A stretch of 64,000 bases of DNA, taken from contig NZ_CP102288.1 in the NCBI RefSeq assembly GCF_025151535.1, positions 2,010,501 through 2,074,500 on the forward strand, in the 5' to 3' direction. Source of the stretch: Segatella copri DSM 18205 (GTDB lineage: Bacteria > Bacteroidota > Bacteroidia > Bacteroidales > Bacteroidaceae). The position numbers were made by a program, and so were the translations under genes. Shown here piece after piece: positions 11,284 to 61,085 of the stretch (position 1 is the first letter of the stretch; every line of letters starts with the position of its first letter). Below the pieces are notes generated by a model. The model was not told the DNA's origin. It searched no databases and saw only the letters and a list, made by a program, of their open reading frames with translations.

Positions 11284-12159
11284 ATGGGTAGATACATCAA
11301 CCCCTTTACCGATTGGGGCTTCAAGCGTCTCTTCGGTCAAGAGTTCAGCAAGGACTTGCTGATTAATTTTTTGAACGACTTGTTTGAAGGTGAGTTTCAA
11401 ATCAAGGACGTAACATTCAAGGATAAGGAACAGCTTGGAGATACTAATGATCTCCGTGGCTGCATCTTTGACATCTATTGTGTTACCGACGATGATAAGC
11501 ATTTCATCGTTGAGATGCAGAACAGATGGGTACCTTTCTTTGTGAACCGTTCCATCTATTATGCTAGTAAGGCTTTTGTTGCCCAACGCAAGAAGTTTGA
11601 TGAAGCAGGTAACCGCACTGCTGTTTTATACCAGTTTGTACCGGTGTATGTGGTTTGCATCATGAATTTTATGCCAAGGGAGCATGAGGTGACAAAGTTT
11701 AGGACAGACGTTGCTTTGAGGGAGAAGTCTAGTGACTCGATGTTTTCTGACAAGCTTCGTTTCATCTATCTTTCTCTTCCTTTCTTTGATAAGAGTGAGG
11801 AAGAATGCGAGACAGGTTTTGAAAAATGGATTTATGTTTTAAAGTATATGGAAGTATTGGAAAGATTGCCTTTTACGGCACAGAAAAAGATATTCGATCA
11901 TCTTGCTAAATTGGCGGATGTTCGTTGCTTGAGTAGTGAGGAGCAGGAAAAATACGATGAAAGTATTAAGGCTGTTGATGATTACTACTCCGGCCTTTAT
12001 GGCTCGTATGTTGAAGGCGAGGAAAAGGGTAGAGCGGAAGGTGAACTGTCTAAAGGTTTGGAAGTAGCCCGCAACTTGTTGGCAATGGGTATTTCTTGGT
12101 CTCAAATCATGCAGGCAACTGGATTGACAGAAGAACAATTGAAGCAACTTCAGTCGTAG
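11284..12159 (+). CDS. Rpn family PD-(D/E)XK nuclease (transposase_31/TIGR01784 type)
   Basis: 291-residue protein. The N-terminus RYINPFTDWGFKRLFGQE is the hallmark of the Rpn/PDDEXK transposase-like family, with the nuclease core at residues ~15-120: D in FKRLFG...IFDIYC, and the IVEMQNR strand supplying the E-x-Q catalytic pair. The C-terminus (GRAEGELSKGLEVARNLLAMG ends in short helical repeats) is usual. Relatives in Enterobacteria promote RecA-independent recombination; that role here is inferred only. The gene is isolated, monocistronic and followed by a long hairpin. Confidence 0.85.
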   Translation: MGRYINPFTDWGFKRLFGQEFSKDLLINFLNDLFEGEFQIKDVTFKDKEQLGDTNDLRGCIFDIYCVTDDDKHFIVEMQNRWVPFFVNRSIYYASKAFVAQRKKFDEAGNRTAVLYQFVPVYVVCIMNFMPREHEVTKFRTDVALREKSSDSMFSDKLRFIYLSLPFFDKSEEECETGFEKWIYVLKYMEVLERLPFTAQKKIFDHLAKLADVRCLSSEEQEKYDESIKAVDDYYSGLYGSYVEGEEKGRAEGELSKGLEVARNLLAMGISWSQIMQATGLTEEQLKQLQS

Positions 12160-12163
12160 TATT

Positions 12164-12219
12164 AGATTTCTGCCTGGTGCTTTGCCGGATTAATCCGACA
12201 AAGCACCAGACAGAAATCT
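12164..12219. terminator. 27-bp hairpin after the Rpn-type gene
   Basis: Arms 12164-12190 and 12193-12219 pair over 27 positions with two mismatches that would be G-U in the minus-strand RNA. No T-run on the plus side. Confidence 0.65.
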
Positions 12220-12274
12220 CCTTCAGCTCTATACACATTATATAATAAATAGGCAGATAAGTAATGCCCAAAGA

Positions 12275-12361
12275 AATCCAAAATACACTTTTCCGATAAA
12301 ACCAATAGTCGAAAACTACACTTTTCCTATGAAAATAGGGGGTTGGAAACCACACTTTTCC
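12275..12361. repeat. Three imperfect tandem units containing ACACTTTTCC
   Basis: Units of about 30 bp at roughly 12283, 12314 and 12350 share the core ACACTTTTCC preceded by AA and followed by an A-rich spacer. On the minus strand an open frame reads RKSVVF and YRKSVF in successive units, but no start signal supports translation. Confidence 0.5.
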
Positions 12362-12472
12362 GAAAAAAGCGGTATTTTACCCTTATAAAACATGGATTTT
12401 AACCCATAAACTACCCTTTTTAGTAAAGGAGTTTTTCATGGCATATTGTAAAGTACTTTTAAGGGATTAGAA

Positions 12473-13071
12473 AACCTTAATGACCGATAATGACCTTGAC
12501 CTTAATGACCTTATCCCCTAAATAGCCAGACTCCATTGTCAACAGAAAATCACATTACCCAAGCAAAAAATGACAAGAAAGACAGAATTGTTTTTTTCAG
12601 AGAAAGAAGGAGAAAAATGCTCTTAGGAGCAAGAAAAAGTGGTTCCGATGGCACTTTTCACCCCTTCAGAAAGCTAAAATAAGAGGGGTAAAAGGTAGGA
12701 TGAAAGGGGAAAAACGAGGAATTTCTTGATATATTTTGTCAAGATTCTCGTAAAACAGCAAGAAAAGCTTGGGTAGAGCGAAGGCGATTCCGTGTGTTTT
12801 AATAGCATTAAACGAGGGAACCAGAACAGTTCTACAAGCTACTATCAAATTGATTATCAACACGATACATTCAATACCACATTCTTCCAGAATAGCTTTC
12901 AGAAGCTCTATCGTGTCATTAAGGGTCAGGGTCATTAAGGGTCATTAAGAAAAAGCAAATGTCATTTAGAGCCATAGTATAATATAAATATATATTTATT
13001 ATTATACTATAGAGACATTTGCGCCCCCGAAAACCTTAATGACCCTTAATGACACTGACCCTTAATGACAC
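12473..13071. repeat. CCTTAATGAC repeat region with large inverted repeat
   Basis: Copies of CCTTAATGAC cluster at 12473-12521, and in inverse orientation at 12913-12949, then again at 13034-13071. Arms 12913-12949 and 13035-13071 are inverse complements over 37 bp with one mismatch, and the 85 bp between them is itself imperfectly palindromic (GCAAATGTC...GACATTTGC and ATAGTATAAT...ATTATACTAT). The 12522-12912 stretch inside holds no convincing gene. It looks like the ends of a small decayed mobile element or a protein-binding array; I cannot identify it. Confidence 0.6.
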
Positions 13072-13233
13072 CACCCCACATTTCCCCGCTTTTCAATCAT
13101 CAAAAGCAATCCAAGGTTACTTTTGCAATCAGATGCACAAATCAAAAACACTTATACCTCTACACATCAGCTACTTACGCACTATTTTTCAACATTCTAC
13201 CGGAAAAAGCTTGCTTTCTGCTTAGAATTTTTG

Positions 13234-51253: not shown

Positions 51254-51655
51254 ATGAATAATAACACAGATTTACTTAAAGAATACGCTTCTCTTGCAGG
51301 TAAGGAAGACGAAAAGAGCGAAACTCGAAAAACTGAGATTTTAAACTACATCAAATTACATGCTGATGATAGTGACAGAGAGGAGGCTAAGGCTTTCATA
51401 AACCAAAAGATGGAACAGCTTCAGAGTGAAGTTCTAACATTGCGTGACCAACTTGCAGAGGATGATTACAAGTTGCTGCCACTTAGATACATCGCACAAA
51501 AATACTTCGGCAAAAGTGCTGCATGGCTCTCTCAGCGTCTCAACGGCTCAGAGGTTCGTGGTCATGTTTACACGCTCAATGCAGAGCAGAAAAGCATTTT
51601 CAATCGTGCCGTTCAGGAAATAGGACAACGCATCAGCTCTTTGCAGTTGGCATAG
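51254..51655 (+). CDS. DUF5053 protein
   Basis: 133 residues. Helical N-terminus with charged coiled-coil character, then the conserved C-terminal block LPLRYIAQKYFGKSAAWLSQ followed by RLNGSEVRGHVYTLN. This is the DUF5053 signature, seen in Bacteroidota chromosomes, often near integrated elements. The block resembles a small helix-turn-helix, so DNA binding is plausible. No phage structural gene is nearby. Confidence 0.8.
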   Translation: MNNNTDLLKEYASLAGKEDEKSETRKTEILNYIKLHADDSDREEAKAFINQKMEQLQSEVLTLRDQLAEDDYKLLPLRYIAQKYFGKSAAWLSQRLNGSEVRGHVYTLNAEQKSIFNRAVQEIGQRISSLQLA

Positions 51656-51661
51656 GGTTAA

Positions 51662-51766
51662 CTTTATCACACAAACGTCTCCGACACGATTCCGTGCTGG
51701 GGACTTCTTATGCTTTTTGTCTTGCTTCCAAGCCTCCAGTTTACTGATGATATTTCGTCTAAACAT
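51662..51766 (-). pseudogene. N-terminal remnant of an AAA ATPase (DUF4143 type)
   Basis: Minus strand reads MFRRNIISKLEAWKQDKKHK, then ARNRVGDVCVIK where intact relatives have a GARQVGKTxVI Walker A. The P-loop lysine context is degraded and the frame ends soon after. Remnant only; family by resemblance of the first ~35 residues. Confidence 0.45.
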
Positions 51767-51886
51767 ACGCATTTGTTTCAAATCAGGGGCAAAGATACTA
51801 CTTTTTTGTCGTAAATCAGCGGCAATAGCGTTAAAGTTTGTTGTAAATCAGGGGCAACTAGGCATATCATTTAAAAAGGTGGCGCA

Positions 51887-53470
51887 TCAAATGAGATGCG
51901 TCACCTTTATTTTCTTATACGGTTTACCACCCAAACCAAGGGCAGCCATCGTATGATCCTTGATAATCAACTCGCCTTTCTGCAAACCAGCTATCGCCGA
52001 CTTGATTTCCTGGAAGTCTTTACCCGACACACCAAAGAGATCCTTGATGATACTGTCAGAAATCGTCTGCTGCTTCATAATGAGCGGATACTGTGCATTG
52101 GCATAGAAATCGAAAAACTTACTCTTGTAACTATCCATGTTTTGAGTGGCAAAGATGATGCTCAATCCCTTGTTTCTACCCACTGCTATCAGATTGCGAA
52201 GCGGCTGATTATCGAAGTCCAGCATATAGTGAGCCTCATCGATAATCGTGAAGTGGCGAATCTGTACATAATCCTCATTAACCGCCTGCTTCGGCAACAG
52301 CTCATAGATATTATTGAGCTTAGAAATGATGAAATACACGATAGCCCTGGCTATCGGACCATCTTTCGGGAAAGCATCCATCTTCACGACAAAACACTCA
52401 TCTATCAGATTCGCCTTATCTTCCGATGCAAACAGATGATTGCGAATCAACTGCTTCAAAACCGAAGTGATGCTGTCATCCTTATCCGGATTCTGCATTC
52501 TTTGCTGATACTTCATCAGCATCAGCTCAAAAGTGATAGGCTTGCCTGCCGTCTGCTTATAAGCCTCAACAATAGCTTCACTCAGTCGATTACTCATGGA
52601 TGCGCTCACCGTTGCACGATCTACAGCGCAGAGTGCACCAGCCATCTCCGTGGAATAGAGATTGATTTCGTTGATGGTCCTGCCCGTAAAATCCTTGAAC
52701 GGCGTGAAAGGCAATGGCGCAACCACAGGATCGAGAATGCAACTCCTATCTACATCGAAGTGAACAAGCCAACTAGCATTCGACGGGTCTGAGAATTCAC
52801 CCTTATAATCGAACAAAAGGAAGTTGACGGGATAAGGCGTTTCCGTGGAGAGATTACGAAACTGCTGAATCAACACAGCCAGAAGATTGGTCTTACCTGA
52901 ACCCGTGGTACCAGCCACCAGAATCTGTGCATTCGATACCGAACGCCCGTTGATATTCAGTTTCGCTTCCATATCCTCTGCATACTCGCCTATCAGCAAC
53001 TCCAGGGCAGGAATGCCACTTCCGCCATGTCGCCTGTCGCTGGCAGCAAAGAGGAAAGCATTCAGATTCTCATCTTCCGAAAGATAAGCGATACCCCGAT
53101 AGATTTCCTTCGCCACGATGCGACCCACGATACTGGCATTCTGCCAATCCACCTCACAATCTCTATATCTCAACTTCAACAAAGCCGAAAAAAGCGACTT
53201 CTTATTGTCCTTGGTAAAGAAACTAGGCATGATGCGCTGAGAAGATTTCGACAATACGATTTCTCCCAAACCATCCACACTTCTCTTCTCCGTTAAGCTC
53301 AAACTGGCTATCAGGCAGATTCGCATCACCTTATTCAGGGTTAGCATGGCATCCCTCTCCCCTTCCACTTGCCGCGAAAGGTTCAAACGCTTCTCCAGTT
53401 TCTCCTTCAAAGGCATGATGGCTTCTACCATACCTTCTGCCTGTCGTATATTCTCTAATGCTACTTCCAT
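51887..53470 (-). CDS. DndE-like/HerA-like ATPase, last gene of the Mod-Res-DndD operon
   Basis: 527 residues. Walker A is AGTTGSGKT (186-194), Walker B HFTIIDEAHYML (about 415-426), sensor block LSIIFATQNMDSYKS: a HerA/FtsK-type DNA-translocating ATPase. Residues ~20-100 (LTLNKVMRICLIASLSLTEK, VDGLGEIVL) resemble the DndE fold, where small proteins bind nicked DNA in phosphorothioation systems. In known dnd loci the HerA-type ATPase (DptH) works in restriction. Here it is encoded 28 nt after a DndD-like gene and downstream of a type III Mod/Res pair. The DndE resemblance is my reading of a short region and needs a profile search. Confidence 0.75.
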   Translation of the reverse strand: MEVALENIRQAEGMVEAIMPLKEKLEKRLNLSRQVEGERDAMLTLNKVMRICLIASLSLTEKRSVDGLGEIVLSKSSQRIMPSFFTKDNKKSLFSALLKLRYRDCEVDWQNASIVGRIVAKEIYRGIAYLSEDENLNAFLFAASDRRHGGSGIPALELLIGEYAEDMEAKLNINGRSVSNAQILVAGTTGSGKTNLLAVLIQQFRNLSTETPYPVNFLLFDYKGEFSDPSNASWLVHFDVDRSCILDPVVAPLPFTPFKDFTGRTINEINLYSTEMAGALCAVDRATVSASMSNRLSEAIVEAYKQTAGKPITFELMLMKYQQRMQNPDKDDSITSVLKQLIRNHLFASEDKANLIDECFVVKMDAFPKDGPIARAIVYFIISKLNNIYELLPKQAVNEDYVQIRHFTIIDEAHYMLDFDNQPLRNLIAVGRNKGLSIIFATQNMDSYKSKFFDFYANAQYPLIMKQQTISDSIIKDLFGVSGKDFQEIKSAIAGLQKGELIIKDHTMAALGLGGKPYKKIKVTHLI

Positions 53471-53498
53471 ATTTATATTGCTCCGTCAATATGAAACA

Positions 53499-55499
53499 TT
53501 ATTCATTACACATTACTCCAAAGTATCCTTCCTCCACGTGGGTGCTCTGACTTTCCACATCTCTTACCAGTGTATAAGAACGGGAAAGGAATGGTTCCAG
53601 CTTCATGTAATCCTTATCCTTTCTGATTTCCGAAGTGGTGCAGAGCAGGATGGTTTGCTCGGCAAGTCCCGGGAAGTATTCTTCCATCAGCACATCACGG
53701 CTCTCCTCATCCAATACGCCCATCACCGTGTCTATCATCACAGGTGGATTATAGTCGCCCAGATTTCGAAGCACCTTCAGCAACACCTGGATAAAGATTT
53801 GCTTGGATGCCGCATTCAATTGGTTGAGCGAGATTTCATTTCCTGCCTTGTGATAGAGACGGATGGTGAAATTCTCCATACTGTCTGATAGCTCCACCTT
53901 GGCGATGCAGCCCTTGTAGGAAATGAGGAGTTTGTTGAGTTGCTCCTTCATATCCTCCTCAATCTTTTCCTTCTTGCGCTTGAGCAGAGTGTCGGCAACA
54001 TCCTCAAAGAAAGGCTTAAGTTTCACCAACATGTCATATTTTACATCTGGTTCCTGCTGTATCTGCACATCAAACTGGTGAATCTTCCGCTCCAGTTTCT
54101 CAATGCTCATCTTTCTGTCATCCGCCTCCTTCTTCAAGATTTCAAGTTCACGGCTAGCCTCCTCGTATGCCTTGATGATTTCGGTATTGCCGCTTACCAT
54201 GCTACGACGGAGCAGAGCTATCTGACTCTGCTGATTATCATAGTTCTCCAACCGCTTTTCCAAATCATAACGACTGTCATTAAGGGCGATAAACTCATTC
54301 ACAGCATTGGCACCCAGCAGATTCTTGAGCGCATCAAACTCGCTTTCATCCAGAAAAGCATAGTCATCCTTGCGCTGCAAAGCTTCCTGCTGACTCTTCA
54401 GGTAAGCCACCACATCGTCATCCTCCACGGAATCCGGACAGAGGCACTTTGATTTCAGATAACCAAGAATCTTGGTAGTTACCTCACGCATCTGCTCCAG
54501 GGAGAGCACCCCTTCACGTTCCTGCTTCAAGGCTTCTTTCTGTCGGATGATGTCATTCACCTCGTTTGTGATTCCCTGTGCAAGTTTCGGAAAGAACACG
54601 TTGATTTCCAAGGTCTCCACCACCTGCTTCAATTGGGCATTATATCGCTTTGACAACTCCTGCGTATCTTTCACGCTGGCCTCCAGATCCTGAATCTTTC
54701 GTGCAGTCTCGGCAGAATCCTTAGCACCTTCCTTGGCAGCATCATATTCAGCCTGAATGGAAACCAGATATTTGTACTTATCATCCTGGTGCTTGGTATT
54801 CTCCTCCTGCAAAGCCACCAGTTGGTTGCGCTGCTCGCAAAGACCATTATATTCCTCAGCCTCCTTTTGTGCCTCCAGTCTCCTTGCCGCCCATTCCTGC
54901 TGCTGATGCTCGGCAGCATTTTTCAATTGCAGATACTTGTTGAATCCCATCACATTCTGGATATTATCCTTGATGATTTGGGCAAAAACATTCTCCTTCA
55001 AGAGCTCGCTCGACTGCATAGCATCGAATAGGAAATACTTACTGAGTTCCTGTGGCAGGTTTGCCTTGATGATTTTATTCACCTGCTGCTCGTTGATGGC
55101 ACGCTGCTGCGGAGGCGTAGCCGTACCATAGGAGAAAAGCGTGCCATCCATATTGAGCAGCACATTCTCCACAGGCTTGTTGGCAGGATTAAGCTTATAA
55201 GTGCGACGCAGCAGATACTGCTGCTTGCGTCCGAGCACCATACCTTCGAAAGAGAGTTCAAGCACGATGGTAGGCTCCACCTTTCCCAAGGCACCATTGT
55301 TCAGGAGTTCCTGAAAATGCGCCTTGTTCTGAATTTTGAGTCCATATAGAGCCCCACAGATAGCCTCGAACAGCGTGGTCTTACCACCACCATTCATACC
55401 ACCTATCAGGATGATGGGCTGATCGGGGTTCACCGACAAATCCAAGTCAAGACTCAGATAAGTCTTATAGTTCTTGATTTTGATTCTTTTGATAATCAT
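53499..55499 (-). CDS. DndD-like SMC/Rad50-type ATPase
   Basis: 666 residues. N-terminal Walker A GGMNGGGKTT (33-42) in IILIGGMNGGGKTTLFEAI, a long coiled-coil middle (about 190-560) with a turn bearing KCLCPD (zinc-hook-like, only CxC), a signature replaced by LNAASKQIF, and a C-terminal Walker B VMIDTVMGVLDEE followed by YFPGLAEQTILLCTTSEI. The last block and LSRSYTLV match DndD of DNA phosphorothioation systems, not Rad50 or SbcC. DndD normally provides ATPase activity for sulfur insertion, but the sulfur-transfer genes dndA/dndC are absent here. 38 nt from the 71-aa gene. Confidence 0.82.
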   Translation of the reverse strand: MIIKRIKIKNYKTYLSLDLDLSVNPDQPIILIGGMNGGGKTTLFEAICGALYGLKIQNKAHFQELLNNGALGKVEPTIVLELSFEGMVLGRKQQYLLRRTYKLNPANKPVENVLLNMDGTLFSYGTATPPQQRAINEQQVNKIIKANLPQELSKYFLFDAMQSSELLKENVFAQIIKDNIQNVMGFNKYLQLKNAAEHQQQEWAARRLEAQKEAEEYNGLCEQRNQLVALQEENTKHQDDKYKYLVSIQAEYDAAKEGAKDSAETARKIQDLEASVKDTQELSKRYNAQLKQVVETLEINVFFPKLAQGITNEVNDIIRQKEALKQEREGVLSLEQMREVTTKILGYLKSKCLCPDSVEDDDVVAYLKSQQEALQRKDDYAFLDESEFDALKNLLGANAVNEFIALNDSRYDLEKRLENYDNQQSQIALLRRSMVSGNTEIIKAYEEASRELEILKKEADDRKMSIEKLERKIHQFDVQIQQEPDVKYDMLVKLKPFFEDVADTLLKRKKEKIEEDMKEQLNKLLISYKGCIAKVELSDSMENFTIRLYHKAGNEISLNQLNAASKQIFIQVLLKVLRNLGDYNPPVMIDTVMGVLDEESRDVLMEEYFPGLAEQTILLCTTSEIRKDKDYMKLEPFLSRSYTLVRDVESQSTHVEEGYFGVMCNE

Positions 55500-55537
55500 A
55501 ATCTATTCTTCACTCTTCGTTCTTCATTCTTGGTTCT

Positions 55538-55753
55538 TTACTTGATCTGAGAAATCGCCTCGGCGATAATCTTCTCAGTATCCTCGTCATTCATTTCTAT
55601 CTTATCCACCTTGGCTGCATGATATTTGCGCAGGATTTCCTCGCTCATCCAGTCGAAGTCAATCTCATGCTTCTCGCATAGCGTCCTGATCAGGTCGAGG
55701 TCTTCCTTTCGGATGCCATAGTGCAAGAATTTTCCATCTAGTCCCTTTGCCAT
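55538..55753 (-). CDS. 71-residue DNA-modification-system-associated small protein
   Basis: MAKGLDGKFLHYGIRKEDLD, then LIRTLCEKHEIDFDWMSEEI and a Lys/Glu helical tail. Acidic-basic mixed, helical, no membrane segment. Sits between the res and dndD-like genes with gaps of 37 and 38 nt, and so is part of the operon. Proteins of this look recur with DndD-like plus HerA-like ATPases in my knowledge of such loci, where their role is unproven; an adaptor between Res/Mod and the ATPases is a reasonable guess. Confidence 0.75.
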   Translation of the reverse strand: MAKGLDGKFLHYGIRKEDLDLIRTLCEKHEIDFDWMSEEILRKYHAAKVDKIEMNDEDTEKIIAEAISQIK

Positions 55754-55790
55754 CGTTATTACACCTTATTATAAATGTAGCGTTTATGAC

Positions 55791-58145
55791 TTATTTATAT
55801 TCTTTCGGATAGAAGCTATCCCACTCCACAATGTCTGTAGTGTTTTCTATCTTCAGCGGACAATACTTCCAGTTGTTATTTCTCTCGATAATGATGCCAC
55901 CTTTCAGATGCTTGTCCTTGTTCTCTTCGCTCGCCATATAGTCGATGAGGGCATTATGCTTTTCTACGGCATCCACATCACTTCCAGCACTCTTGGTATC
56001 GAAGAGGAAGATCTGACCATTCTTCATACGAATCACGAAATCTACATAGAATAGGGCTTTGTGCCCCTCCTTGTTCTCGTAACTGATGGCATAATGTTGC
56101 CTGCCGGCATCACCATTTTTATACCACCAGTCAATATACTCCCTGTTGGCTTCCAGGAAAGCTTCGAAACGCTCTTCAGGCTTAGAGGCATTCTTCAATT
56201 CTACGAATGGCAAAAGAGCATGATCTCGTACCTCATCCTTGATGTGATGGCTTTCTTCCTTATAGAGTCGTTCCACTGGAACCTCCCAGTCATAAGTTTT
56301 ATAAAACTTTGCATTCTGCAGATTCTGCCGCTCCTCAAGTATTTTCTGATAACGATTCAAGGCACGGTCTATCAAATCTGCAAATACCTCCTTATTACCA
56401 TGATAAAGAATCACCTTCACGGCATCCGTCTCAAAGAGTTCAAACAAGTCTTCCATCAGTTCCTTCAAGGCAAAAGCCAATGTCGTGACACTCACCTTCT
56501 CAAACTTCGAACCAATACACTTGGCACAGAAAGCATTGAATGAATTGTTCAATTCCTGCATCGTGCGGACATATCTTGCCTTCTTATCCACATGAGTCTC
56601 ACCAGTCTCGCCCGTGATACTGACATCCTCTATCAAATCGATTCCAATGCTTCTTACCTTAAAGGTAATCTTATCCTCACATGCCTTTCTGTTTTTGGCA
56701 TAAATGCTCTCTGCAGCCTCAACATCTTCGGAATCTTCTTCATCCACATTGCCCTCCAAGTCATCTATCGTGAAAAGAGATAACTGGCGGTTCTTAACCA
56801 GAAGAATATCTTCAAAGACTTTTGCAAGTACCTTCTTGAAATCTGGTCCCAGTCGCTTACGTGCAATGGCAGGACGCTCACAATATTCAGAACGCAGCAC
56901 CACATTGCATAGATTCTCTCGACGAACAGCATGAATATTCGACATATAGTCCATATCATCTTGCACAATCTTGATGATGTCTTTGCTGAGATTGGTATAT
57001 ACATAGCCCCAATTCAGTCGGTCGTCCTCATAGAAATGCTGCTCAGGCATACGAAGAATGCGTCCCACGGTCTGAGCGGTGAAAGTAAAACTCTCTATCT
57101 TTCGGAAGATGAGGAGCACAGCGGCACGAGGGCAGTCCCATCCCAGAGCGATGGCCTGCTTGAAGAGTAACACCTCGGTCAGATTATCCGGTTTCTCTAT
57201 ACCATCCAGATTCTCCTTTTCGTTGCTGAGCCATATCGCCAACTTGCCATTGTCAACATTGATATTCTTGATGGTGTCCAGATATTGCATCACCTCTTCC
57301 TTGATACTTTCATCATCCTTATCCATCTTATCTTTATCATTAGGCAACTGAATAAGCAGCAGAGGATTGATATGAACACCTATCTTGCGATAAGCCTCAG
57401 CCAACTCTTCCCGCTTCTTGAACGCAAGGCTCACCAGATGCTGGTTCAAAGAGCCATTCGGATCCGTAAAGTTCAAGGCAGGATTCAATACCACACCCTG
57501 TTTAATCATACCTTCTCTAACAACAGCCTCTCTAGGTATTTTCACATCCAAATCGCCTTTTGTCTCAGGGGTTGCCGAGATACGGAGCTCAACTTTTGGA
57601 TTGATGTTCTTCAACACCTTCTCTGTCTTGTTGGCGAGTTTGCTGGCAAACATGTGCTCTTCGTCGATGATAACGACGATAGGAATATTCTGTTCTTCCT
57701 GGGTTCTGCGAGTAAGATCATAGAGCGAAGCACTCTGCTCCGTATCACGTATCATCACGGCATTATCCTTATTGATACTCTCCCAATTGACGAAAAGGAT
57801 TTCTCCCGGATGAATGTAGCCTTCGGCAGAATGGTCGAGGTCGTCATAGATGACCGGATGCAACTCCTGTCCTTCCGTAAAGAAGGATTTCATCTTAAAG
57901 TAGCTCTGCTCATGAAGCTTGTTGGGAGCAATCCAAATATACGCCAACTCTTTATAAGGTACATCCGTACGGTCTCTCAACTCTGCATTCAGTCGGAGCA
58001 ACATTTCTGATGCCATCACCGTCTTGCCGGCACCTGTTGGAGCCTTAAATACGAGTGTATGGCGCATACCTGAATAGGTAAGCAAATCAATGGTCTTATC
58101 TACCAATTCCTTGACTGCTTTCTGCTGATATTGTATCTGTTTCAT
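55791..58145 (-). CDS. Type III restriction enzyme-like Res subunit (DEAD/DEAH helicase-nuclease)
   Basis: 784 residues, superfamily 2 helicase. Motif I APTGAGKT (35-42), motif II DEEH (161-164), motif III SATPE, and motif VI QTVGRILRMPEQ are in order. The C-terminal part ends with FYVDFVIRMKNGQIFLFDTK (about 715-735), a PD-(D/E)XK-like site with D-x-K in place of E-x-K. In type III systems Res and Mod form one complex that cleaves after ATP-driven sliding between head-to-head sites. The start overlaps the mod stop by 4 nt (ATGA), so the two are coupled. Confidence 0.88.
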   Translation of the reverse strand: MKQIQYQQKAVKELVDKTIDLLTYSGMRHTLVFKAPTGAGKTVMASEMLLRLNAELRDRTDVPYKELAYIWIAPNKLHEQSYFKMKSFFTEGQELHPVIYDDLDHSAEGYIHPGEILFVNWESINKDNAVMIRDTEQSASLYDLTRRTQEEQNIPIVVIIDEEHMFASKLANKTEKVLKNINPKVELRISATPETKGDLDVKIPREAVVREGMIKQGVVLNPALNFTDPNGSLNQHLVSLAFKKREELAEAYRKIGVHINPLLLIQLPNDKDKMDKDDESIKEEVMQYLDTIKNINVDNGKLAIWLSNEKENLDGIEKPDNLTEVLLFKQAIALGWDCPRAAVLLIFRKIESFTFTAQTVGRILRMPEQHFYEDDRLNWGYVYTNLSKDIIKIVQDDMDYMSNIHAVRRENLCNVVLRSEYCERPAIARKRLGPDFKKVLAKVFEDILLVKNRQLSLFTIDDLEGNVDEEDSEDVEAAESIYAKNRKACEDKITFKVRSIGIDLIEDVSITGETGETHVDKKARYVRTMQELNNSFNAFCAKCIGSKFEKVSVTTLAFALKELMEDLFELFETDAVKVILYHGNKEVFADLIDRALNRYQKILEERQNLQNAKFYKTYDWEVPVERLYKEESHHIKDEVRDHALLPFVELKNASKPEERFEAFLEANREYIDWWYKNGDAGRQHYAISYENKEGHKALFYVDFVIRMKNGQIFLFDTKSAGSDVDAVEKHNALIDYMASEENKDKHLKGGIIIERNNNWKYCPLKIENTTDIVEWDSFYPKEYK

Positions 58146-60085
58146 TCGTCGCCTCCTTCCCTGTTATCTTTGATTTCACTTGCTGCCATCGTATATGTTT
58201 GATTTTGAAATAAATCCGATTCTTCGACTGTTCTCGCTTCTGAATCCGTTTCTTCTGCAACATCATCCAGGAGTTGCGCTTGACGCTTCTTTGGCAAAAC
58301 CCTGCGATAAGCATTCAATACGGCATCAGGCATGGCACAAAGCGAGACACAATCTGCCACATCCTCAAACTCATCATCATAAGCATAGCCGTTTGGCGAG
58401 AAGACATAGACCATGAGTTTGCCGTTCTCCTTACTTTCGGCATTCTTGAATTCCTCCTTCATCAACTCTACCAGGGCTTGAATAGCCTCAGCGCGATAAA
58501 TCACCAACATTCGTTTAGTTCCATCATTGCTCTCGAAATAGCGAGCAATCTTGTTGTTGATGTTCTTGCCAGCAAATGGCTTCTCGATATATGTATCGTT
58601 GTGGATGCAAAGCATATCTGTAGAGAGTGCCATCAAATTACGCAGATTCTTCGGACTCTTATCACGAGGCACAAACTTCGTCTTGTAATAACGAAGGTTG
58701 TTGCGGGTTAAGCCAGGAACCTGAGTATGTCCCTTAATAGTTGTATAACCATTAATAACTTTATAGATGCGTGGATGAGCAACTTCTTCACAAATGTTAT
58801 TCTCATTATTAGTAGCAAGAATACCTTTTCGATGTCCTCCATCACCATCATTCATTTTCATAATAGCGTCTAATGTTGTGGCACTACCTGCAAAGAAATC
58901 TAGCACAGTAATATCAGATGGCTTCTCTGTTATAGCAATCAAATATGCTATCAATTCCCATGGCTTACTAAATGGGAAATCAATTCCCATATTATTTAAA
59001 TATGTAGTGGCAGAAGAGTTTAAATAATCATAGATTACATCATCTGGTAGGTTATAATCAATATCACCATCAGTTTCTTCATCCTCATATTTTTTCTCAT
59101 AAACGTTCCAATCCGTATGATTTCCATATGAATCAATCAAAGGAGATTTTTTTGATTCAGAGAACATTATGCGATCTTTCTTTGCAAGATAAGATTGATA
59201 AGACCAACGCCAAACTTTATCTGCTCTTGTCGCAGGAGCTATATGAGCAGCATCTTCATTTTCTAAAGGCATAGTATGACCAGGAGGCAATATTAATGTG
59301 CCATCAGGAGCCTCTATATAATAACGTTGATTCTTACAACCTCTCAAAGGATCTAAAGAAGCTTGAAATAAAGAATGTGCTTTACGAAAGTTTCTTCCAT
59401 TTTCATCAACTAAAGGATATTCTTTCACTTGAAATTCCTTTGTATGAAATCCTTTTACCATTTCTGTATTTTTGCAATACACCAAGATATAATCTTTTGT
59501 AGGTCTAAAATAAGTACCTTGCTTTGAGCCAGATTTAGCAATTCGTGGTAAAAAGCCTAAGCATTGACGTGAAAATATTTCATCACAAAGAATTTTCAAT
59601 TGTGATACCTCATCATCTCCAATAGAGATAAAGATAACACCATCTTCTTTCAATAAAGATTTAGCTATCTTCAATCGCTTATTCATAAATGACAGCCACT
59701 TACTATTATAATAGGCATCTTCTTTATCTACATAAGCATCATTATATTTAAAATCCTTATTGCCAGTATTATAAGGTGGATCGATATAAATGACATCAAT
59801 CTTTCCTGCATGGGTATAGCTAAGGGCTGTAAGGGCTTCGAGGTTATCACCTTCAATAAGAATATGGTTTGGAGCCTCAGCGTCATCGCTGAGGATGGCA
59901 CGTTCAGGTACTTCAACAAGCACAGGCTGGTCATCAAGCATTCTTTGCTCTATATCCTCAGGTTTGTCTTCCCAAACCAAACCATACTTTTTCTTCGAAC
60001 GAAGAAGCTGAAACAACTCCGATTTCTCATCATTTGTAAGACCTTCCAGCTCATTTATCTTCTTTGCGAGTTCGTATTTGTTCAT
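58142..60085 (-). CDS. Type III-like DNA adenine methyltransferase (Mod)
   Basis: 647 residues from ATG 60083-60085 (MNKYELAKKINELEGLTNDE); an upstream in-frame ATG at 60133 adds 16 residues without a ribosome-binding site. Motif IV DPPYNTG (102-108) precedes motif I DFFAGSATT (about 395-405), the beta-class order of type III Mod proteins; between them lies the target-recognition domain. Predicted N6-adenine methylation giving host protection and site recognition for Res. First gene of the five-gene operon, preceded by a ~465-nt structured leader. Confidence 0.9.
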   Translation of the reverse strand: MNKYELAKKINELEGLTNDEKSELFQLLRSKKKYGLVWEDKPEDIEQRMLDDQPVLVEVPERAILSDDAEAPNHILIEGDNLEALTALSYTHAGKIDVIYIDPPYNTGNKDFKYNDAYVDKEDAYYNSKWLSFMNKRLKIAKSLLKEDGVIFISIGDDEVSQLKILCDEIFSRQCLGFLPRIAKSGSKQGTYFRPTKDYILVYCKNTEMVKGFHTKEFQVKEYPLVDENGRNFRKAHSLFQASLDPLRGCKNQRYYIEAPDGTLILPPGHTMPLENEDAAHIAPATRADKVWRWSYQSYLAKKDRIMFSESKKSPLIDSYGNHTDWNVYEKKYEDEETDGDIDYNLPDDVIYDYLNSSATTYLNNMGIDFPFSKPWELIAYLIAITEKPSDITVLDFFAGSATTLDAIMKMNDGDGGHRKGILATNNENNICEEVAHPRIYKVINGYTTIKGHTQVPGLTRNNLRYYKTKFVPRDKSPKNLRNLMALSTDMLCIHNDTYIEKPFAGKNINNKIARYFESNDGTKRMLVIYRAEAIQALVELMKEEFKNAESKENGKLMVYVFSPNGYAYDDEFEDVADCVSLCAMPDAVLNAYRRVLPKKRQAQLLDDVAEETDSEARTVEESDLFQNQTYTMAASEIKDNREGGDE

Positions 60086-60550
60086 AAAGATAGCTACATT
60101 ATTTTGTATGCTCACCCCTATTAGCAAATACATAATAATTTTATTCTGTTTTCATTTCTCTGCAAACCTACAATCTTCCCATAAGCCGACAGAAACTATC
60201 TTAAAAGAAATTGGCGCAGGGGTGTCATTACTCCTTTAACGTTCTTGCAAAACTGGAGGTTTAGGAGACCCGTGACTTAACAAGAACAAGAAGCAAGAGG
60301 ACACACCTACGCCAACATGGTATATATGTATGTAGCACAAGGCACACCCTTCCTATACGAAAGGGCGCACTTGTGCCGTGTATATATACACGTTATGTAG
60401 GCGTCCACTGCCATCTCTCTCCGATAAGTCACTTGAAGTTCCTAATTTCCAGTTTATCAGAAGCGAAACGTAGTAAACGTCTAATTCTAAAAGATATAGC
60501 CAATCCCCAGACTTTTCAGCCAGCATCCCTTTGCCAGCCATCTCGGAAAT
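60086..60550 (-). ncRNA. Long structured leader of the Mod-Res operon, or separate RNA
   Basis: Between the promoter at 60558-60565 and the mod start there is no convincing gene, but several strong foldbacks: GGCGCAGGGGTGTC (60213-60226) with 60299-60313, 13 of 15 positions, enclosing GTTCTTG/CAAGAAC (60241-60247 with 60281-60287); and GCACAAG...CCCTT (60335-60351) with 60361-60376. A minus-strand ORF of 62 codons (60353-60541) starts near the predicted transcript start without a good ribosome-binding site; it may be a leader peptide or chance. Such length and structure suggest regulation of the operon, or an independent RNA that belongs to it. Confidence 0.5.
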
Positions 60551-60551
60551 G

Positions 60552-60626
60552 ACGCTACAAAATTAACGAAAAGAATTGGAAATGCCAAAGAAAAGAACGA
60601 CTTTCTTTAGTTTAAGATACAAAAAA
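60552..60626 (-). repeat. 75-bp direct repeat, copy A, with promoter for the Mod-Res operon
   Basis: Matches 61011-61085 with three mismatches. Contains TAATTTTG on the minus strand (60558-60565), pointing towards the operon. Confidence 0.85.
60558..60565 (-). promoter_or_regulatory. -7 element of the Mod-Res operon
   Basis: TAATTTTG on the minus strand; predicted start about 60550, some 465 nt before mod. Confidence 0.6.
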
Positions 60627-60655
60627 GCCTTTCAGCATCTGAAATACTAAAAGGC
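60621..60655 (-). terminator. Terminator of the 93-aa gene
   Basis: GCCTTT and AAAGGC arms with an inner TTTCAG/CTGAAA, followed by six Ts on the minus strand; insulates the downstream promoter copy. Confidence 0.75.
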
Positions 60656-60706
60656 AAATTTTATTCTAAGACAGTTTGAAGTTCTAATATTATAGCACTG
60701 TCAGAA

Positions 60707-60988: not shown

Positions 60989-61010
60989 CTTATTCCTTTC
61001 TTTTAAATTA

Positions 61011-61085
61011 ACGCCACAAAATTAACGAAAAGATTTGGAAATGCCAAAGAAAAGAACGACTTTCTTTAGTTTAAGATACGAAAAA
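61011..61085 (-). repeat. 75-bp direct repeat, copy B, with promoter for the 93-aa gene
   Basis: Carries TAATTTTG (61017-61024, minus) about 29 nt before the gene start; near-identical to copy A 459 bp away. Confidence 0.85.
61017..61024 (-). promoter_or_regulatory. -7 element of the 93-aa gene
   Basis: TAATTTTG on the minus strand. Confidence 0.6.

Follow-up and report, generated by a model that had tools for sequence, protein, structure and literature searches.

What brings a type III restriction-modification (R-M) pair into one operon with proteins of the Dnd kind, and does the second set read the methylation laid down by the first? The question is raised by a 64,000-nucleotide stretch of the gut bacterium Segatella copri DSM 18205 (contig NZ_CP102288.1, positions 2,010,501 to 2,074,500; the whole stretch is called the window here), part of a 3,325,514-base single-contig genome. 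Five open reading frames (ORFs) occupy 51887-60133 on the minus strand, with gaps of -4, 37, 38 and 28 nt between successive ORFs; an earlier note on this DNA had described five such genes in this order, and that observation holds. From first to last they encode Mod, a type III beta-class DNA amino-methyltransferase of about 647 aa (58142..60085); Res, a superfamily 2 (SF2) helicase with a C-terminal PD-(D/E)XK nuclease, 784 aa (55791..58145); a 71-aa small protein, SP (55538..55753); a DndD-family coiled-coil ATP-binding cassette (ABC) ATPase, 666 aa (53499..55499); and a 527-aa protein (51887..53470) in which a DndE-like domain (residues 1-145) is fused to a HerA/FtsK motor of the DndH/DptH type (about 153-527). 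Apart from the divergent DndE domain, this composition is almost certain. The earlier note supposed that the Dnd part had been recruited to an adenine-methylation system, perhaps as a second effector that reads methylation. The reading argued here, to which we give an even chance, is that two modules have been joined: Mod-Res would recognise non-self, and SP, DndD and DndE-HerA would form a Pbe-like DNA-handling effector, blind to the Mod motif.

The five genes do belong together, a point that the earlier note had left to a survey. A scan of a genome collection gave 166 relatives of the DndE-HerA protein, and the best 80 of the 166 (loci L100-L179) were examined. At least 7.5 kb lies upstream of DndE-HerA in 57 of these, and in 56 of the 57 all five genes lie on one strand; the exception, L118, is degraded and keeps a remnant of DndD. 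Over the whole set the count is 61 of 80; among the 19 incomplete loci, all but one have under 7.5 kb upstream. The order Mod, Res, SP, DndD, DndE-HerA is kept in the listed loci, occasionally with inserted genes. Some entries are near-duplicates of each other (L115/L116; L178/L179, on one contig), and a few loci of the set are also counted among the relatives' genomes described next (L035 and L110, for example).

Bacteroidota account for nearly all hosts. One metagenome assembly each is labelled Ignavibacteriales, Opitutales, Alphaproteobacteria or Clostridium, labels that may reflect binning errors, and the host of L148 has no classification. The closest named relative among the best 80 of 166 is Segatella copri iA622 (L100), with a DndE-HerA 98% identical to that of the window. 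When 199 relatives of the window genome were searched, 18 matched DndE-HerA (E 0.001), nine of them (the window genome among these) with at least 49% identity; in the other eight, as much of the unit is seen as the contigs cover, one (L042) being without upstream sequence. An even sample of the phylum gave 14 matching genomes in 392, where the close ones are only the window's own and two with a solitary DndE-HerA. The unit is widespread but patchy in Bacteroidota, and its recurrence suggests that a second, built-in weapon is turned on foreign DNA. The two solitary genes (L043:9767-11497 and L044:6718-8469) come from one genus and are 49-54% identical to the window's; no match to DndD, SP, Mod or Res was seen within the 18 kb examined around them.

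Does DndE follow the Mod target? If DndE read the Mod motif, DndE and the target-recognition domain of Mod should change together. For the most part this is not seen. Exchange of that domain is known in type III Mods. Among loci whose DndE is at least 95% identical, target domains only 16-30% identical occur in seven of eight clusters (a near-identical pair is present too in one of the seven, and the eighth is an identical copy on one contig). Between the window and L100, DndE, HerA, DndD and Res are 99, 98, 99 and 98% identical as proteins, the target domain 20%. By residue (numbered on the 663-aa ORF), Mod is 85% identical over 45-175, 20% over 180-400 and 64% over 405-485. The DNA tells the same story: 51805-58861 aligns at 95.4%, 58861-59579 not at all, and 59579-60657 at 82%; the middle segment, on the minus strand, is taken as the approximate target-recognition region. 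Converse pairs exist as well, with target domain and DndE identities of 63 and 38% (window/L140), 67 and 30% (L170/L178) and 60 and 33% (L146/L165). A DndE that stays constant while the target domain is exchanged, and the reverse, argues against DndE as reader of a methylated motif, and that candidate is disfavoured. The second effector of the earlier note, at least as a reader of the methylated motif, is thus not borne out, since DndD and HerA are likewise near-identical across the exchange. A DndE that reads methylated bases in any sequence context would survive this comparison. On these sequences, the Dnd module does not follow exchange of the Mod target domain, and this is the new point.

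Rates of divergence also divide the operon. Pairwise protein identities were compared across 48 complete cassettes, with 999 permutations. SP, DndD and HerA co-diverge at r 0.84-0.94 (SP with DndD, r = 0.87), and DndE correlates with the three at 0.70-0.84. Res follows SP, DndD and HerA at r 0.61-0.75, the highest value being that with DndD (0.75); permutation never reached the correlations of DndD with HerA, DndE or Res. The Mod target domain correlates with SP, DndD, HerA and DndE at only 0.12-0.15. In a tree of 79 Res proteins, Mod-Res loci that stand alone are nested inside the cassette clade at several places. Four such loci were retained (L084, L085, L087 and L088), and none has a tblastn match to SP, DndD or HerA. 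Full-length Mod and Res ORFs are present only in L084 and L087; in L085 the Res match runs over two frames and the contig start truncates Mod, and in L088 Mod is truncated at the contig end, which makes these two weaker cases. One genome, G140, has both forms, the cassette L035 and the stand-alone L087. As pairs without the module lie within the cassette clade, the module looks like an accessory add-on, later lost in the stand-alone loci; replacement by recombination instead of loss is possible. A fifth candidate, L086, was dropped: its contig ends 168 bases after Res.

Several of these observations weigh against two modules joined in the manner proposed. In L134/L149 both partners are alike (target domain 89%, DndE 82%). 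The correlations of the target domain with DndD and with DndE (r 0.15 for DndE), small as they are, exceed all 999 shuffles and are not zero. Co-divergence may partly reflect shared ancestry. In L153/L165, DndD is 93% and Res 44% identical, so that dissimilar Mod-Res pairs stand beside a near-same module, and any contact between the module and Res must be tolerant. Finally, the stand-alone pairs show that the module is dispensable in some hosts.

The first two genes are a type III pair by the homology of Mod and by the domain content of Res. The Mod ORF reaches 60133, the likely start being 60085. Mod matches Pfam N6_N4_Mtase (1.7e-28), PADLOC MTase_III (1.7e-73) and the type III Mods in PDB (6k0w, 1.7e-77; 7dsu, 2.5e-76; EcoP15I 4zcf, 3.5e-61), and the motifs DPPYNTG and FAGS-TT are preserved in an alignment of 53 sequences: it is a beta-class enzyme homologous to type III Mods. 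Res combines an SF2 motor with a C-terminal PD-(D/E)XK signature that is preserved in the family. A profile search of PDB at E 0.001 matched SF2 helicase fragments only, EcoP15I Res not among them, and PbeA is absent from the six PADLOC families listed for Res. Catalytic motifs are intact in Mod, Res, DndD and HerA. Type III systems methylate an asymmetric site on one strand only, and need two sites to cleave, which they do at a distance. The pair resembles EcoP15I and EcoPI in Mod homology, in the SF2 and PD-(D/E)XK composition of Res, in mod-res order with a 4-nt overlap and in the exchangeable target domain; it differs from them in the three recurring genes of the Dnd kind downstream. Of the supposed link between a Dnd core and adenine methylation, the union of a Dnd-type core with a methylation system in a conserved unit (56 of 57 loci) is supported; ‘adenine’ is an assumption. 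Two further type III-like pairs occur in the same genome, L091 (C1:1048537-1050843) and L099 (1942957-1944186), with no Dnd module in the stretches examined, as is also the case for other type III pairs more distant from the cassette; the Res of L091, a 962-aa ORF, is longer than that of the unit. Elsewhere, tandem Mod ORFs precede Res in L173 (two full-size) and L156 (one full-size and two shorter), and in two cassettes, L038:8816-11190 (4-nt overlap) and L164, separate ORFs encode the helicase and the nuclease of Res.

The Dnd kinship of the remaining three genes was checked against profiles of the Dnd and HerA families and is supported. SP matches PF20306 (Sp-DndD) at 28.8 bits against a cut-off of 27.2, and is well conserved (HYGIR, W, YH); tblastn located it in 72 of the 80 loci L100-L179, the remaining eight being L118 and seven that end in or just before DndD. 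The ATPase was rightly called DndD-like: it matches PADLOC DndD at 2e-65, and TIGR03185 at 2e-55 with 188.5 bits, under the cut-off of 245.85, so that it is homologous yet not the equivalog. The motifs GGxNGGGKTT, LNxASKQ and VMIDTVMGVLD are preserved in 69 sequences. In a tree of 41 ATPases, those linked to Mod-Res form a single clade (100/100) that falls on the DndD side, and the five PbeC/CxC ATPases included are separate from it (100/99); the tree is unrooted, long branches limit finer statements, and the join to the HerA group of phosphorothioate (PT) type is weak (84/58). A CxC motif at the coiled-coil apex (CLC, residues 352-354) might have pointed to the PbeC clade. It occurs only in the window and L100 among the 69; L127 has C.C or C..C at 370, 18 residues further on, and the other 66 have neither, whereas all five PbeC comparators carry C.C or C..C there. 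No zinc hook is conserved in this DndD family, and with the tree placing it on the DndD side the assignment to the CxC clade was dropped.

The DndE part is harder to place. Its N-terminal 150 residues have no match to Pfam DndE at E 1. Compared by hhalign with six stand-alone DndE proteins from annotated dnd operons, the domain scores 30.7 (E 2.1e-4, probability only 45.5%), where 28 control segments from cassette proteins reach at most 14.6 and a reversed alignment 11.2. R50, L57, R125 and G126 are common to the domain and five stand-alone DndE proteins in the alignment. Against the N-termini of PT-type DndE-HerA proteins the score is 17.6 (E 0.057), within controls (best 18.7). L045, whose neighbourhood is unclassified, was also among the proteins used in comparing DndE. 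A profile search that matched DndE structures is not independent, as its query alignment holds five canonical DndE proteins. DndE is described as two ribbon-helix-helix units and a C-terminal helix (PMC10853773). A predicted model of the domain (predicted local distance difference test score, pLDDT, 78.3; predicted template modelling score, pTM, 0.61) has helices at 14-29, 45-57, 83-89, 91-101, 112-130 and 133-145; their order resembles that description, with single bridge residues at 9, 11, 73 and 79 and no full strand where strands are expected. The missing Pfam match, the bridge residues and the PT-type comparison within controls lead us to judge the domain a divergent member, and it is taken as a divergent DndE. 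The motor most closely matches the DndH/DptH C-terminal domain, by PADLOC and by a fold search with rows spanning residues 152-526 only; in the PADLOC DndH model only positions 1341-1700 of 1715 align, and the DndH N-terminal part is absent. The description of a HerA-type ATPase with a DndE-like N-terminus therefore holds, with HerA of DptH type.

How might such a unit work? Mod would mark host DNA at sites set by its exchangeable domain; Mod-Res would find unmarked DNA, probably that of phages or plasmids, and translocate on it or cut it. The Dnd module would not itself recognise the Mod sequence: Res, or DNA engaged by Mod-Res, would most likely recruit SP and DndD-DndE, by way of a contact through Res or SP; DndD dimers would clamp or loop that DNA; and a HerA ring would pump it, so that replication of the invader is stalled or DNA is fed to the Res nuclease. 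The replication block is proposed by analogy with PbeABCD (PMC6459918). If so, the unit would represent a distinct class of R-M system, a proposal we put somewhat short of even: a type III recogniser would hand unmarked targets to a motif-blind DndD-DndE-HerA machine, exchange of the Mod target domain would re-aim the whole loop-and-pump effector, and DndE would recognise a state of the DNA (a loop, a nick, Res-stalled or unprotected DNA), not a sequence.

Another way to understand the module is as a backup, normally idle: once a phage had inhibited or escaped Mod-Res, the module would be released to stall replication or to kill the cell, SP acting as its inhibitor or as a sensor. For CxC systems, the small protein is a proposed negative regulator that viral enzymes set free (PMC10853773), and Mod-Res can persist alone, as expected if the module is a second layer. 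SP is conserved here, unlike the fast-evolving small protein described for CxC systems, and family searches name no toxin domain in the module; we consider the backup unlikely. Two independent defence systems that merely travel together would account for Mod-Res alone in L084 and L087, for differing Mod-Res blocks beside one kind of module, and for the RhuM, Abi_2 and other genes inserted in the operon in some loci. Joint residence of all five genes in 56 of 57 loci, and the Res-DndD correlation with none of 999 permutations as high, speak against mere company, as does the fact that an intact module without Mod-Res was not seen where sequence allowed: L118 is degraded, and L043 and L044 are without SP and DndD. 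This explanation is a little harder to sustain than the backup. A third alternative keeps the earlier proposal whole: the Mod target, with or without methylation, is what DndE recognises, and HerA with DndD is a methylation-directed second effector. One proposal for Dnd systems is that target specificity depends on DndE diversity (PMC10853773), and the module is intact only beside Mod-Res in the 57 sampled loci with enough sequence. The seven clusters of eight in which near-same DndE accompanies unrelated target domains, and converse pairs with target domains 60-67% and DndE 30-46% identical, make it improbable. Least of all should this be a PT Dnd system with distant sulfur-transfer genes, for although DndD and DndE are core Dnd parts, neither DndC nor DndB has a match at E 0.001 in the 3.3-Mb genome (DndA was not searched), and the idea can be set aside as very improbable.

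The models behind that search were TIGR03183 for DndC and PF14072 for DndB; in 14 control genomes the DndC model matched five, none above its cut-off, and the DndB model two, both above. The earlier note's remark that these genes are missing from the window extends in this way to the whole genome, and sulfur modification is unlikely with neither matched.

Set beside DndABCDE systems, the unit has the divergent DndE domain, without DndC and with a DndD below the TIGR03185 cut-off. It resembles PbeABCD and CxC ABC ATPase-DndE systems (PMC6459918, PMC10853773) in being paired with a modification system and in gene order, SF2 protein, small protein, ABC ATPase, DndE, as at the Halorubrum and Ruegeria loci. 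It differs from them in an ATPase of the DndD branch without the conserved hook, in the fusion of DndE to HerA, in a Mod within the unit, and in the SF2 slot: a type III Res with PD-(D/E)XK here, as against PbeA with HKD (PMC10853773) and without PD-(D/E)XK (PMC6459918). DndFGH (DptFGH) shares the HerA motor; the protein here has 527 aa against 1389-1715 positions in the matched PADLOC DndH models, with DndE in front in place of the DndH N-terminal domains. A related arrangement is that of DndC-DndD-DndE-HerA loci (HerA clade 3 of PMC10853773; here L046, L047, L048, L050 and L052), where DndD likewise adjoins a DndE-HerA fusion; there DndC replaces Mod-Res, and the fusion is only 22-26% identical to that of the window. 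DndC was called by Pfam PAPS_reduct in L046, L047 and L050, and by N-terminal likeness to L047 in L048 and L052; SP is not listed in L047, L048, L050 or L052. Two more loci, L049:3750-9798 and L051:3688-9522, hold a sigma-70 region 4 protein (666-734 aa), a small protein (60-64 aa), DndD and a DndE-HerA again 22-26% identical to the window's, with neither a methylase nor DndC seen between or next to these genes. The sigma-70 region 4 protein of L049 also has helicase-associated and weak RpoA-CTD matches, and in L051 a PLD-like gene lies upstream. At least three kinds of partner thus go with one kind of DndD/DndE-HerA core: Mod-Res, DndC and a sigma-70 region 4 protein.

Much of this is already in print. 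Rakesh, Aravind and Krishnan (PMC10853773) describe the DndD/CxC-DndE core with its small protein and HKD-SF2 nucleases. They also report cytosine methylases that replace phosphorothioation, and fusions of HerA domains to DndE next to a DndD-related ATPase. Xiong et al. (PMC6459918) describe PbeABCD as an SF2 protein, a small protein, an SMC (structural maintenance of chromosomes)-like ATPase and a DndE-like protein, which block replication of unmodified virus DNA and require the modification; they suggest pairing with methylation, as base-modifying genes lie within 10 kb of 155 of 320 solitary PbeAC. Neither the DndE-HerA fusion nor the association of DndD/DndE or Pbe cores with other modifications is therefore new. 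Another extra ATPase tied to type III systems is reported in PMC8259958: as here, a conserved additional ATPase is linked to Mod-Res in many genomes, those being N4-methylcytosine (m4C) systems with a single helicase-like SF2-type gene 5' of mod, unlike the ABC ATPase, HerA motor and SP downstream of res. The part of PMC12839542 available has no DndD or DndE, and that of PMC5608340 reports two Prevotella intermedia strains with neither type III nor Dnd found. The open-access papers searched do not describe type III Mod-Res together with SP-DndD-DndE-HerA; reference 24 of PMC10853773 or the supplements of PMC6459918 may hold one.

The unit is self-contained, with mark, cutter and Dnd-type motor module together; annotation would probably split it into a ‘type III R-M’ system and stray DndD and HerA genes. 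It offers a handle on an open question, the role of DndD-DndE and HerA motors in Dnd, Pbe and DndFGH systems: the mark here is an ordinary methyl group, mappable by long-read sequencing and switchable by exchange of one Mod domain; natural controls with and without the module exist; and the exchange pattern speaks for a DndE that does not have to fit the sequence being modified.

A few observations on carriage and surroundings may be added. Among viral contigs there were 135 pattern matches, with no relative among them. An unverified 15.6-kb ‘bacteriophage’ scaffold from faeces (L187, MT835906.1) has the whole five-gene unit, its DndD 98.6% and HerA 96.4% identical to bacterial loci; it is bacterial DNA that entered a virome, or else a mobile carrier. 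Pontibacter arcticus (NZ_QMDV01000006.1; L178/L179) has two cassette copies on one contig, whose four compared proteins are 100% identical. Additional genes interrupt the operon in some loci: by Pfam, a RhuM family gene (L035:2937-3947) and an Abi_2 gene (L037:6705-7601), and two unclassified ones (L103:4320-5402 and L169:5250-6258). In the window, 51548-51781 on the minus strand appears by eye to be the remnant of a 462-aa ATPase-like gene that is longer beside the L100 cassette (11690-13078). Upstream of the cassette, an 80-nt direct repeat, 94% identical (60547-60626 and 61006-61085), flanks a 93-aa gene; when three relatives without a DndE-HerA match were aligned as candidate empty sites, the neighbouring oxidoreductase genes aligned to about 61256, where the alignment stops.

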